DNA of 9,286 nucleotides from Candidatus Alcyoniella australis. Its GTDB lineage: Bacteria > Lernaellota > Lernaellaia > JAVCCG01 > Alcyoniellaceae. The notes below the pieces were generated by a model that worked only from the letters and a program-made list of their open reading frames with translations, was not told the DNA's origin and did not search any database. Location of the stretch: assembly GCA_030765605.1 (NCBI GenBank), contig JAVCCG010000111.1, positions 1 through 9,286 of the forward strand. Direction: 5' to 3'. Each line of letters begins with the position of its first letter. Position 1 is the stretch's first letter. Positions 2,786 through 9,286 of this stretch are shown piece by piece. The translations under genes and the position numbers were made by a program.

Positions 2786-4519
2786 TCAGAGCATTGGGCC
2801 CAAGAAGCTGAAATATTCGTTTGCGCCGAACTCGATGGTCGTCGGGTCGGTGCAGTCGCTGCTGTCGCACTCGAACAGGTAATATCTCTCGCCCGTACCC
2901 GTGTACTCCCTGAGTAAAATCTCGGGGTGCCAATCGCCGGTCAGGTCGTAATAGGTGTAGAGATTGATCGAGTTGGTGGCCAGCACTCCCAGGTTGTAGG
3001 AATAGATCAGGCTCAGGTCGGCGCCGGAATAGACGTAGAGCGTGTAGTTGTACTGCCACTCGCTGCCGGTCCAGGTTGACGCCTTGGCCACCACGACCAG
3101 ATCCATTGCGCCATCGCCGCCCAAATCGGCCACGCCGTACTGCGCGGTCCCGGACTCGCCCAGATCAAAAGTCGCCAGCACGCCGGAGCTCGCTCCGCCA
3201 TTGACGTCGAGCAGCTCGATCCGGCCCTCGGTCGAACCTACGGTGTGAAACTGGCCGATAAAGGCCAACTGCGGATCATCGGCAAAAGAGTAACCGACTT
3301 TTAGATAAGAGCGTCCCGTGCAATAGGCGAAGTCTCCGTTGGTGTCGGTCGGCAATGTGAAGTCCATCAGGCTCGAATAGCTGTCCGCGCCGTTCAGGGC
3401 GTAGAAGTCGCTGGCATACCCGCCTTGCGACTGCTCGTAAAACGGGTCGAGTACGCCGTCTGAATTTAAGTCCGCCTGGCGCATGGCATAGGAATAGCTA
3501 TCAGCGTAGTCCGGCGAGGCGTACTCATCGACGAAATCGTCGTTAAAGCCGACGATCTGAACCGAGCCGGTGCGGGTCGCTTTGTCCGAGGGGTCGGAAT
3601 AGGTCTTGGTGATCATCACCTCGGCCCGCCCGTCGCCGTCGTAATCTCCGGCCCTGGCCCCGCTCCAGCCTCCGCCCTCGTAAAAGTCGATGGGCGCCGA
3701 GCTGTGCTTGAGCTCGCCGCTGTCCAGATCAAAGATCATCAATTGGCCGTAATCGTGTCCGCCGTCCTCGTACTCGTGGTAGCCCAGCAGCTCGTGGGCG
3801 CCCTCATCGCCGGTCATGTCGGCCGCGTGAAGATAGATTTGATCGACATGGGCGTAGAACATCGGCGAGAACAGATCGATGCTCGGATCGTTGATTGTGG
3901 CGCTCAGGGTCATCGCGTCGGGCGTGATCTGATAAAGGTTGTAAGTGCCGCTGCCGCAGCAGCCCTCGGCCGAGGTAAGCAGCTCGGGCAGGCCGTCGCG
4001 ATTCGCATCGATGATCATGATCCAGGGATAGGCGTCGGCCACGAAGTCGGTCTCAAACGCCGGAGTGTCGAACTCGCCGTTGAGATACACGCTGTAGACC
4101 GTGCCGGTCGTCGCTTTGACCTCGACCACGTTGCCCAGAACGAGATCCCACACGCGGTTGCCGTCGAAGTCGGCCACCGCGATATACGGCTCGCCCTGAT
4201 ATCCGATGATCTGCTCGCGCTCCAAAGTACCGGGCTCGACCAGGTACAGGGCGAACTCGTCGCCAACGTAGGATTCCATCAGCAGCTCGTTGTCGCCGTC
4301 GCCGTCGTAATCGACCGGCACAATGCAGTTGACCACGGGCAGCGGCGGCAGATCGTCGTCGTCGTCATCGTCATCGTCGTCATCGTCGTCACCTGGATTA
4401 TCATCGTCATCATCGTCGTCGTCATCATCATCGCAGCCGCAGGAACACGACACGGCGAACAAGGCGCTGAGCAACAGCGCCAGGACAATCCAGAGCAGAA
4501 GCAGTGCGCGATTTTTCAT
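2786..4519 (-). CDS. FG-GAP/VCBS-repeat lipoprotein with poly-Asp linker
   Basis: A 577-residue protein starting MKNR with a hydrophobic segment (4-23) and a cysteine cluster SCSCGC (24-29); Cys25 is the likely lipidated residue. Residues 30-56 are 11 Asp, NPG, 13 Asp. The body contains repeated acidic calcium-type loops of the FG-GAP/VCBS family: DYDGDGDNELL (70-80), DFDGNRVWDLV (117-127), DANRDGLPELL (171-181), DMTGDEGAHELL (234-245), DYDGDGRAEVM (292-302), DLNSDGVLDPF (350-360), DLGGDGAMDLV (465-475) and DLTGDWHPEIL (525-535). Eight loops fit an integrin-alpha-like propeller that binds calcium and probably acts in surface adhesion or as a scaffold. AGGGA lies about 6 nt before the ATG. It is the first gene of a minus-strand pair with the other Asp-linker lipoprotein, so both are probably made together and exported by Lol machinery. 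The binding partner cannot be read from sequence. Confidence 0.85.
   Translation of the reverse strand: MKNRALLLLWIVLALLLSALFAVSCSCGCDDDDDDDDDDDNPGDDDDDDDDDDDDDLPPLPVVNCIVPVDYDGDGDNELLMESYVGDEFALYLVEPGTLEREQIIGYQGEPYIAVADFDGNRVWDLVLGNVVEVKATTGTVYSVYLNGEFDTPAFETDFVADAYPWIMIIDANRDGLPELLTSAEGCCGSGTYNLYQITPDAMTLSATINDPSIDLFSPMFYAHVDQIYLHAADMTGDEGAHELLGYHEYEDGGHDYGQLMIFDLDSGELKHSSAPIDFYEGGGWSGARAGDYDGDGRAEVMITKTYSDPSDKATRTGSVQIVGFNDDFVDEYASPDYADSYSYAMRQADLNSDGVLDPFYEQSQGGYASDFYALNGADSYSSLMDFTLPTDTNGDFAYCTGRSYLKVGYSFADDPQLAFIGQFHTVGSTEGRIELLDVNGGASSGVLATFDLGESGTAQYGVADLGGDGAMDLVVVAKASTWTGSEWQYNYTLYVYSGADLSLIYSYNLGVLATNSINLYTYYDLTGDWHPEILLREYTGTGERYYLFECDSSDCTDPTTIEFGANEYFSFLGPML
4352..4432 (-). repeat. 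Trinucleotide GAY tract encoding the poly-Asp linker
   Basis: Twenty-four Asp codons (13 at 4352-4390, 11 at 4400-4432) are separated by nine bases coding Asn-Pro-Gly. GAC and GAT are mixed irregularly, so the tract is not a pure microsatellite. The codon mixture suggests selection for acidic residues rather than recent slippage, although slippage-driven length variation remains possible. Confidence 0.8.
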
Positions 4520-4856: not shown

Positions 4857-6515
4857 ATGGCAAGCAAAAAATATCCAAAGTGGTTCAAAGACTGTTTCGT
4901 CAGTAACTCCGAGGCGCTGGACGCCACGATCAAGTCCGGAGTCTATATCTCCTCGGGGTTCGCCACCTCGGAGCCCCATACATTTTATGATGCGCTGTGG
5001 GAGCACATCCAGTCCCACGACCTGCACGATATCAACATCCGACAGGCGTTGTTCATGGCGCCGTTCAATCTGCTGGTGGGCGATGCGCTGCAGGCCAAGG
5101 GCCTGCTCAACGGCCTGGCCAATCGCGTATCCGGCGTCTCGCTGCTGAACAACATCGCCAGTCGCGCCAACCAAATCACGCAGAAGCTCGAGGGGCTGCA
5201 CAAACTGATCGAGCATTTCAAGGAGCTTCAGCAACGCAAGATCGTCTTTGTCTCGGCGTTCATGGGTCCGGCGTCGAACATGGTGATCCCCGACAATCCG
5301 ATCACCAGGCTGCGCTACCCCGAGTTCGTGGGCCGCAATAAGTCGCGGATGGGCATCGTCGACCACCAGTCGTGCCACTTTCCCGACGCGCCCGACGGCA
5401 TGGCCTACGATCAACAGGGCAAGATGATGATCGACGTGTTCGCCCTGGTAATGACCCCGCCCAACGCCAAAGGCGATATGAGCCACGGACTGGCCAACGG
5501 CGCCAACGGTCCGACCATCGAAATAGCGCTGCAACCGAGCTCCAAAATCAAGCTCGTGCTCTACATCAACAAGAAATATCCGTTCACCATCGGCTTTAAC
5601 GACGCGCCGAACACCGTCAACATCAGCCGCTTTAAAGACGCGGCCAAGCAGGGCCGACTGTTTCTCATCGAGGATGACGGCAAACTGCCCGCCCTGCCCG
5701 CCCACAGTTTTGAAAACCCGGCCCCGGTCGAACTGCAGATCGCCAATAACCTGGTCAACCACATGGAGATGCACAAGGATTTGACCCAAGGACGGGCGAT
5801 CCAGGTCGGATTCGGCGGCACCGGCGTACTGGCGATCAGGGGACTGGCCGACTCGAGCTGGACCGGACGGATGTACACCGAAATGCTCGAGCCGTTCACC
5901 ATGGACCTCTGGGAACAGGGCAAGATCGCCGGTTCCCACAAGATCGAGATCGACGGCAGACGCACAATGCTCGACCACAAGATGGTCTGCACCTTCACGG
6001 TCTGCGAGGAAGATTCGGACTTTTACGACAAGCTCAACAACAATCCCGACGTGCTGGTCGCCCCCTCATCGCGCGTGGTGATTCCCGAGGCGTTCTACTA
6101 CGGACTGGGGATCAACAATATTCTGGGCATCGACTTCCACGCCCAAGTCAACTCCGGCGGTCGCGACAAGAACCACTACTCGGGAATCGGCGGCGCAGCC
6201 CAGATCATGCGCGGACTGGCCCGCGGCGGCGTGGCCTACCTCTGCCTCAAATCAACCCACAAGACGCCCGAGGGCAAAGTGCGCTCGTCGGTCTTCCCGT
6301 TTATGCCCGAGGGCACGCCGATCAGCATGATCGGGTCGGACATCCTGGGCACGCGCGAGAACGCCCAGGTCTTCCTGGTCACCGAGCACGGCGTGACCAA
6401 GATCAACGCCATGAGTCAAGCCAACTTTATCCGCAACGCGATCTCCGTGGCCCACCCGGACTACCGCGATTGGCTGGCCCACAGCGCCTGGGAGGAATTC
6501 CGCGCCAAGATCTGA
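4857..6515 (+). CDS. Acetyl-CoA hydrolase/CoA-transferase family protein
   Basis: A 552-residue enzyme of the acetyl-CoA hydrolase/4-hydroxybutyrate CoA-transferase family. These proteins move CoA between an acyl-CoA and a free acid such as acetate, or hydrolyse it, through a glutamyl-CoA thioester in the cytoplasm. Visible landmarks are an N-terminal SGVYISSGFATSEP motif (27-40), the central MIDVFALVMTPPNAKGDMSHG block (191-211), IQVGFGGTGVLAIRGL (315-330), MYTEML with Glu342 as the likely catalytic glutamate, FHAQVNSGG (427-435), SGIGG (442-446), and the closing VTEHGVTKINAM...AHPDYRDWL (508-540). It is longer than common members (about 430-500 residues), with extra sequence around 100-180. 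ATG at 4857 has GGTGAGG just upstream. The physiological acid/acyl-CoA pair cannot be assigned from sequence. A 383-residue antisense frame over it is a GC-rich shadow. Confidence 0.85.
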   Translation: MASKKYPKWFKDCFVSNSEALDATIKSGVYISSGFATSEPHTFYDALWEHIQSHDLHDINIRQALFMAPFNLLVGDALQAKGLLNGLANRVSGVSLLNNIASRANQITQKLEGLHKLIEHFKELQQRKIVFVSAFMGPASNMVIPDNPITRLRYPEFVGRNKSRMGIVDHQSCHFPDAPDGMAYDQQGKMMIDVFALVMTPPNAKGDMSHGLANGANGPTIEIALQPSSKIKLVLYINKKYPFTIGFNDAPNTVNISRFKDAAKQGRLFLIEDDGKLPALPAHSFENPAPVELQIANNLVNHMEMHKDLTQGRAIQVGFGGTGVLAIRGLADSSWTGRMYTEMLEPFTMDLWEQGKIAGSHKIEIDGRRTMLDHKMVCTFTVCEEDSDFYDKLNNNPDVLVAPSSRVVIPEAFYYGLGINNILGIDFHAQVNSGGRDKNHYSGIGGAAQIMRGLARGGVAYLCLKSTHKTPEGKVRSSVFPFMPEGTPISMIGSDILGTRENAQVFLVTEHGVTKINAMSQANFIRNAISVAHPDYRDWLAHSAWEEFRAKI

Positions 6516-6574
6516 GCTGCGGACGACCGACGTCGGGCGAGGAGATCTCGCTGCTGGTCGAGGGCATCAAGATC

Positions 6575-6979
6575 ATGGCCCTGCAGAACTGCTCCTACAA
6601 GGAGTCGCAGGACAAGGAGCCGATCTACGGCGCCGGATTCATCAAGGCCCACGCCATAGGCCGGGGCAAGCGGAAGTTTGAGCTGGACTTCGAGGTCAAG
6701 GAGCTCAACCAGTCCGTGATCGAGGAGCCGACCAACGCGCCGAGAAGCAAAACGATGCAGCTCAAGGTGGTCAAGGTCAACGGCAAGGAGTACGCCTCGC
6801 TGCTCGATATCAAGAACGCCACGGTGCTGATCGTCTACCCGGCCAAGAACGGCGTGCAGAAGATCAAGAAGTTTACCGGCTTTGAGTTTACCGATGTCGA
6901 GGAGGGCTTCGCCTTTGACGACTCGGCCGTGGGCAAGAAGTGCTCGGGATTGGCAATATGGGGCGAAGGAATGGTCTGA
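6575..6979 (+). CDS. Phage tail-tube-like protein, probably 5'-truncated
   Basis: The 134 residues from ATG 6575 include NCSYKESQDKEPIYG, then AGFIKAHAIGRGKRKFELDF (about residues 16-35), two later beta-rich stretches, and the ending CSGLAIWGEGMV. The 'kE.iyG.G..kp.aigRGkrkye' pattern resembles tail tube proteins of phages and phage-like particles, which stack into the inner tube of the tail. Family-like sequence (GRPTSGEEISLLVEGIKI) continues in frame upstream to about 6518, just after the CoA-transferase stop, where no ATG or GTG exists. The only earlier start is a TTG at 6470 inside the enzyme gene, without a ribosome-binding site. This suggests that the natural 5' end was lost at a recombination junction and that the remaining frame starts internally or is a relic. 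Family call is moderate; it might instead be an unrelated small beta-rich protein. Confidence 0.5.
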   Translation: MALQNCSYKESQDKEPIYGAGFIKAHAIGRGKRKFELDFEVKELNQSVIEEPTNAPRSKTMQLKVVKVNGKEYASLLDIKNATVLIVYPAKNGVQKIKKFTGFEFTDVEEGFAFDDSAVGKKCSGLAIWGEGMV

Positions 6980-8653: not shown

Positions 8654-8929
8654 ATGGACGACAGACTGCAAGGGGCGATCGCAATAGTCCGGGCCGAATA
8701 TCCCGAGGCCCGGCTGTTCCAGATCTGCATCCCGGGCGACGAGGAAGTCTACCTCGCCCGCAAGTGCGCCTGGAACGAGTACAAGCGGCTGATCGGAGCG
8801 GTCAAGGACGAGGTCACAGCCAACGAGGTGCTGGTCCAGAAGTTCCTGGTGCACCCGAAGCTCAGCTACGAGCAGATCGACCTGGAGCTCGACCCGGGCA
8901 AGGTCGTGATCCTGGCGCACAAGAAGTAG
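8654..8929 (+). CDS. Phage tail-assembly-chaperone-like small protein
   Basis: A 91-residue protein with GGAGGA at 8645-8650 and ATG at 8654. The pattern AEYPEARLFQICIPGDEEVYLARKCAWNEYKRL (14-46), then EVLVQKFLVHPKLS (58-71), resembles phage tail assembly chaperones. Those have a '-eVYlyRpltr.EYk.l' first half and a 'vv.k.vlyP' second half, and guard the tape-measure protein during tail building. Known ones are usually longer and end with a hydrophobic 'la..I...SGF' segment. This one stops at VVILAHKK, so it may be truncated. No tape-measure or other tail gene follows; the stop codon runs directly into a hairpin array. The link to the tail-tube-like frame 1.7 kb upstream strengthens the idea modestly. 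An independent small cytoplasmic protein is the alternative. Confidence 0.45.
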   Translation: MDDRLQGAIAIVRAEYPEARLFQICIPGDEEVYLARKCAWNEYKRLIGAVKDEVTANEVLVQKFLVHPKLSYEQIDLELDPGKVVILAHKK

Positions 8930-9158
8930 GCACCTTTGAGGTGCCCGCAAAGCTCGCGTAGTACGCTGGTCGTAGCGCCACGACCTTTTCCGCGTAGATA
9001 GCTTTGAGCTACAGCAAAACTCGAGCAGGACGATGGGCTTAGTGCTACCAACCTCTCCGCGCCCGGGCGGCTTAGAGCCGCCACAAAACTCGCAGCACCT
9101 TTGAGGTGCCACAAAACACGCGGATTACGCTGGTAGTTGACCAACGTGCCACTCCGCG
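8929..9158. repeat. Tandem array of about 66-bp units with covarying hairpins
   Basis: Four stem-loops share a 5-nt loop but differ in their stems: GGCACC-TTTGA-GGTGCC (8929-8945), TAGC-TTTGA-GCTA (8999-9011), GGCGGC-TTAGA-GCCGCC (9066-9082) and GCACC-TTTGA-GGTGC (9095-9109). Each is followed within two bases by a tail of the form CAAAACTCG (CAAAGCTCG, CAAAACTCG, CAAAACTCG, CAAAACACG). Units 1, 2 and 4 continue with alignable 48-49-bp segments ending CCGCG (at 8994, 9061, 9158); unit 3 is cut to 13 bp. Unit 1 also holds GGTCGT-AGCGCC-ACGACC (8968-8985) followed by TTTT. Stems change on both sides together, which indicates selection for structure. The array begins at the last base of the chaperone-like stop codon. 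I see no plausible protein in it. Confidence 0.75.
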
Positions 9159-9181: not shown

Positions 9182-9203
9182 AAAGATCGTTAAAACGATC
9201 TTT
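9182..9203. terminator. Symmetric terminator-like hairpin after the array
   Basis: AAAGATCGT (9182-9190) and ACGATCTTT (9195-9203) form a perfect 9-bp stem with a TAAA loop. A-rich and T-rich flanks are built into the stem, so it could act weakly in either direction. A second AAAGATCG lies 20 bp upstream at 9162-9169. From 9204 to the window end I see no gene. Confidence 0.45.
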
Positions 9204-9286
9204 GTGTATAAGGCGAGCGGCGCATTGCCTCAGGGTTTTCATAAACTCCTCACCTTGCCACCTCGAATAACACCTCTTCTCTCGGC

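Follow-up and report, generated by a model that had tools for sequence, protein, structure and literature searches.

A probable REPIN/BIME-like family of two-hairpin repeats that is often fused to stop codons

The hairpin array near the end of the window (the whole stretch analyzed, which is one complete contig, C111, of 9286 bp) probably belongs to a REPIN/BIME-like family, specific to this lineage, of small palindromic repeats that are dispersed and non-autonomous; they would be moved by a REP-associated tyrosine transposase (RAYT) and would often form structured 3' ends of mRNAs. We hold this reading, drawn from sequence comparison, with fairly good confidence. A puzzling array in the window thereby becomes a familiar kind of genome-wide repeat, and REPIN/BIME-like biology would be extended to a class of bacteria that has been little sampled, where the unit lacks a tag and has two hairpins. 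The most interesting part is the sharp fusion of one end of the repeat to stop codons. The pattern is clear and can be counted, so that it could serve to tell the choice of insertion sites from selection; the repeat also offers many natural 3'-UTR hairpins for tests of translation termination.

Positions 8929-9158 of the window hold four units on the forward strand, three of them full (66 bp) and one truncated. Unit 1 (8929-8994; covariance model score 78.3 bits over 8928-8994, nhmmer E 7e-17) is full and consists of a first hairpin, H1 (8929-8945, GGCACCTTTGAGGTGCC), a tail, a second hairpin, H2 (8968-8985, GGTCGT(AGCGCC)ACGACC, from the sequence and its predicted fold), and CCGCG. Unit 2 (8996-9061, 60.4 bits) is also full, with a variant TAGC/GCTA stem in its H1 (8999-9011); its H2 has decayed, and its predicted fold is no better than those of shuffled sequences. 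Unit 3 (9066-9093) is truncated to H1 (9066-9082, GGCGGCTTAGAGCCGCC) and tail, a truncation with a 28-bp period that recurs elsewhere in the genome (spacing class -38). Unit 4 (9093-9158, 66.9 bits) is again full, with H1 at 9095-9109, an H2-like hairpin at about 9127-9147 and a z of -3.0 for its predicted fold. An earlier note on this DNA had described four stem-loops with TTTGA or TTAGA loops and with conserved linkers in three units. All of these are present, at 8929-8945, 8999-9011, 9066-9082 and 9095-9109, with tails that read CAAAAC or CAAAGC and with three linkers of ~50 nt that are 70-72% identical. The period of ~66 bp given there is right for the length of the unit and wrong as a uniform spacing: from one CTTNGAG core to the next the distances are 68, 69 and 28 bp, uneven because the third unit is truncated to H1 and tail.

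The array abuts an upstream ORF of 91 aa and unknown family (8654-8929, forward strand) with a TAG stop at 8927-8929. The last G of this stop codon is the first base of the array, and the junction reads AAGTA followed by GGCACC. Downstream of unit 4 lies the H3 module (9182-9203, forward strand), a second repeated hairpin, AAAGATCGT(TAAA)ACGATCTTT, that is often found 3' of units; 54 places are listed for it in the genome, some of which are the two strands of a single copy. H3 hairpins of the form AAAGATCG..CGATCTTT show a T-A/A-T exchange at the loop-closing pair, have loops such as TAAA, GAAA, AAAA and GTAA, and usually lie just 3' of the CTTNGAG units. A further repeated module (9205-9286, forward strand) is common to contigs C25, C1 and C112, and the window contig breaks within it.

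The genome that holds the window is a 4.29-Mb assembly of 157 contigs that is 98% complete. Throughout this genome the natural unit is 66-67 nt long, with H1, tail, H2 and CCGCG in that order. H1 has 6-7 stem pairs and a CTTNGAG loop, the tail is CAAAACTCGC, or C(A/G)AAACTCGC as a consensus, and H2 is a weaker hairpin of the GGTCGT..ACGACC type. The core pattern of H1 and tail is matched exactly at more than 60 places in this genome, far above chance: a reversed control pattern has no match here, and none of 40 other genomes, of which six are from the same class, contains the core pattern. A covariance-model search, which the earlier note had proposed, gave at least 154 matches in this genome with model R1 and none in the six same-class genomes. 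The count with nhmmer was 251 units, grouped in 105 clusters, a lower bound in that only the stretches fetched around matches were scanned. Pattern scans of public collections returned 19 single matches in genome contigs and 3 in viral contigs, the chance level for 17 fixed bases. The family is lineage-specific, present in this genome and not found in the six others of its class. Its clusters are scattered across most contigs, one or a few on each, between ordinary genes; the repeat is interspersed genome-wide and is peculiar neither to the window nor to phage genes. Eight contigs (C1, C4, C5, C36, C104, C111, C115 and C157) end within or near repeats, and the family is probably a main cause of the fragmented assembly.

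Pairing in H1 is strongly maintained by compensatory changes, as 216 units show. One H1 pair is G-C in 111 units and A-T in 100, with five exceptions, one of them G-T; the next pair is G-C in 142 and C-G in 61. Watson-Crick pairs are seen at these two positions in 211/216 and 204/216 units, as against 108 and 120 expected from independent columns, and the H1 covariation score of 0.229 falls to at most 0.081 after sliding the partner columns. The sample consists of paralogues from a single genome, whose shared ancestry inflates these counts, and the near absence of mismatched intermediates is a stronger argument for H1 pairing than the counts. For H2, 80% of cells are paired, one pair has changed on both sides and most changes are one-sided, which weakly suggests pairing. 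The claims that the units covary, fold and form a structured repeat thus carry over from the window to the whole genome for H1, and find weak support for H2. At L102 (C136:125), L113 (C142:10038) and L044 (C63:119), H1 is exchanged for another sequence, CAGCCCTCTTTCATGTATACGC, identical at all three and followed by a normal tail; this is possibly an alternative end.

The arrangement of neighboring units points to a mobile dimer. Head-to-head (+/-) neighbors (n = 38) are separated by exactly 1 nt in 32 cases, the single base lying between CCGCG and CGCGG, and the opposite order (-/+) is nearly absent (n = 3). The 32 dimers so formed are imperfect palindromes of 132-136 bp, two head-to-head units around one central base. 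Pairs of dimers at unrelated places are 97.8%, 96.3% and 94.8% identical, and the 60-bp flanks of such near-identical dimers are at the random-flank baseline of ~48% or little above it. Because copies that are 95-98% identical sit within unrelated flanks, the head-to-head dimer is probably the mobile unit, with the outer H1 stems as its edges. None of the 32 dimers shows a visible target-site duplication. Units also stand in direct tandem arrays, as they do in the window; among same-direction neighbors (n = 96) the commonest spacing gives a period of 64-69 bp.

Exactly one Y1 transposase was detected in the genome. It is a RAYT (NCBIfam NF047646, 146 bits against a cut-off of 80), and its sole relative in the PDB is TnpA-REP, 4ER8. 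The tnpA-REP gene is usually present in single copy, and its product is thought to move REPs (PMC8266576). When the flanks of the RAYT gene were searched for the repeat they proved to be free of it, the best match being a short, 14-nt tail fragment (E 0.14-0.39); the closest units are ~3.7 kb off, and a search for terminal inverted repeats around the gene gave only an 8-mer. Some RAYT genes described elsewhere also lack flanking REPs (PMC3733652). RAYT-like matches were found in five of the six same-class genomes, all six of which lack the repeat; this fits the species-specific character of REPs and leaves the link between repeat and RAYT unproven. At L057:1160-1175, right after the stop codon of the gene beside the RAYT, stands CCCGCAAAGCTCG, which is identical to the tail of unit 1 in the window and has no hairpin, perhaps an excision remnant.

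We compared the family with the known kinds of palindromic repeat. It resembles REPs as a short intergenic palindrome in high copy (the clusters counted above). REPs are usually 20-50 nt long; here the unit is 66-67 nt, H1 alone accounting for ~17 nt, and the bases before H1 carry no conserved tetranucleotide tag (over 159 outer units, positions -2 to -10 hold 0.21 bit or less). GTAG does stand after CTCGC and before H2 in 54 non-dimer units, and is absent from dimers. As in a REPtron, the genome has a single RAYT, though one that cognate repeats do not flank. Because the GTAG/CGTC tag is missing, the RAYT is unflanked and the unit is longer than a REP, the repeat is a variant of the REPIN/BIME kind and not a formal REP member, and its link to the RAYT is correlative.

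In REPINs it is the inverted REP doublet that replicates as the unit (PMC3116915). Like the REPINs of Pseudomonas fluorescens SBW25 (PMC3116915), the dimers described here are pairs of inverted short palindromes at a fixed distance (the 1-nt gap of 32/38 neighbors) that are intergenic, present in high copy and accompanied by a RAYT, with single units and ordered tandem clusters alongside the doublets; their apparent mobility as doublets is suggested indirectly, by the near identity of copies in unrelated flanks. Unlike REPINs, they are 132-136 bp long with a 1-nt center and two hairpins per half, carry no GTAG tag at the palindrome and leave the RAYT unflanked, and their common clusters are direct arrays of half-units. 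The likeness to GTAG/CGTC-tagged REPs (PMC3733652) lies in dispersed palindromes that are mostly between convergent or unidirectional ORFs, near 3' ends, with termini that often give TAG; the differences are the lack of a conserved tag, the longer unit and an outermost base that is often fused to the stop codon. As in BIMEs, mosaic clusters are built from a few recurrent modules (H1 plus tail, H2, H3 and longer 3' modules), whereas the units mostly run in the same direction rather than alternating and the module sequences are unrelated. ERIC (about 127 bp) and BOX are palindromic or modular repeats; the family resembles ERIC as a ~130-bp imperfect palindrome and BOX in its modularity, with one module variable in copy number, a likeness of size and style in which no kinship of sequence is expected, and differs from both in the accompanying single-copy REP-type transposase. 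The earlier note knew of no CRISPR, attC or REP pattern that the array matches; its arrangement is REPIN/BIME-like, and the canonical REP tag is indeed absent.

The resemblance to ERIC and BOX raises the alternative of a MITE-like palindrome of other origin (of the ERIC, Correia/NEMIS, RUP or BOX sort), mobilized by an unrelated or extinct transposase, with the RAYT present by coincidence. An untagged imperfect palindrome of 134 bp in a modular array, a RAYT gene that the repeat does not flank, and RAYT-like matches in five of six same-class genomes without the repeat would all suit such an origin. We nonetheless consider it unlikely, in that no target-site duplication is visible at the dimers, both ends of the element are short hairpins of the type used as substrate by HUH/Y1 enzymes, and, in a survey of Y1 transposases, the only one in the genome is a REP-type RAYT.

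The position of the repeat relative to genes was assessed with simple codon-usage gene calls. Clusters lie between convergent (42), co-directional (28) or divergent (9) genes, with the remainder at contig ends. The units might also have been decayed fragments of a coding gene, which the earlier note had named as a test of its reading; they are not, for only 1 of the 105 clusters has a large overlap with a predicted gene, an ORF of weak score. The outer H1 end faces the 3' end of a gene 100 times and the 5' end 32 times, and a stop codon falls within -3 to +6 nt of the H1 end in 44/100 cases, versus 2/33 for the CCGCG end. Many of these junctions read TA followed by G, the G being base 1 of the hairpin, as in the window; in a second group of about eight, the stop codon is a TGA inside the H1 loop. 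In two species most REPs are close to where convergent ORFs end, less than 20 bp from the 3' ends, and the termini of GTAG REPs frequently supply the TAG stop of ORFs (PMC3733652). In this single genome the one-sided fusion may reflect either target choice or the survival of insertions that do no harm. We would give rather low odds to a class of mobile palindrome that is set at the stop codons of co-directional genes with single-base precision, through target choice beyond purifying selection. If this were true, a targeted palindrome would remodel how dozens of genes end and give their mRNAs a uniform hairpin directly behind the point of termination.

Under the REPIN/BIME-like reading, we infer that single-stranded dimers would fold via H1 and be moved by the RAYT, an HUH/Y1 enzyme, and that direct arrays and fragments of H1 and tail would have grown where the repeated CGCG ends recombined or slipped. 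Insertions would persist at gene ends, where they are least harmful, and there the element would often provide part or all of the stop codon, as the G that completes TA or as the TGA in the H1 loop. After insertion the 3'-UTR of the mRNA would begin with the hairpin, which could slow ribosomes at termination or shield the 3' end, as E. coli REPs are reported to do.

A second alternative reverses this order and places RNA function first: a 3'-UTR structure selected for translation termination, mRNA stability or transcript end formation, with its spread secondary. The polarity of the H1 end toward stop codons and the conservation of H1 pairing through compensatory changes are consistent with it, as is a report, cited in PMC12306157, that E. 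coli REPs up to 15 nt from a stop codon stall ribosomes (Liang et al. 2015). However, the repeat is restricted to one genome in its class, 32 of the 132 outer H1 ends point toward the start of a gene, an Rfam search of the window gave no match above the gathering score, and dimers are nearly identical at unrelated sites, which suggests selfish spread. We therefore regard selection for an RNA function as an improbable origin. The data do not support the free-standing non-coding RNA or the one-off recombination site that had been suggested for the array; a transcribed 3'-UTR structure is possible. An integron attC array, a CRISPR or a phage-linked recombination site, which folded tandem repeats beside a small, supposedly phage-like ORF had brought to mind, can be set aside almost entirely, since copies occur genome-wide at scattered intergenic sites between ordinary genes with no cassette array, the unit spacing is inconsistent with CRISPR spacers and no RNA or phage family was matched.

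The upstream 91-aa ORF, previously called phage-tail-like, matches no family in Pfam or PHROG at E 0.001. Elsewhere in the window, a 169-aa ORF right after an acetyl-CoA hydrolase-like gene (6470-6979, forward strand) weakly matches a major head protein in PHROG, with E 1.4e-7 across 51 residues. On the reverse strand, 2786-4519 encodes a putative lipoprotein with two long poly-aspartate runs past the signal sequence, and 3-1127 an NB-ARC/STAND-type NTPase fragment that is cut at the contig start.
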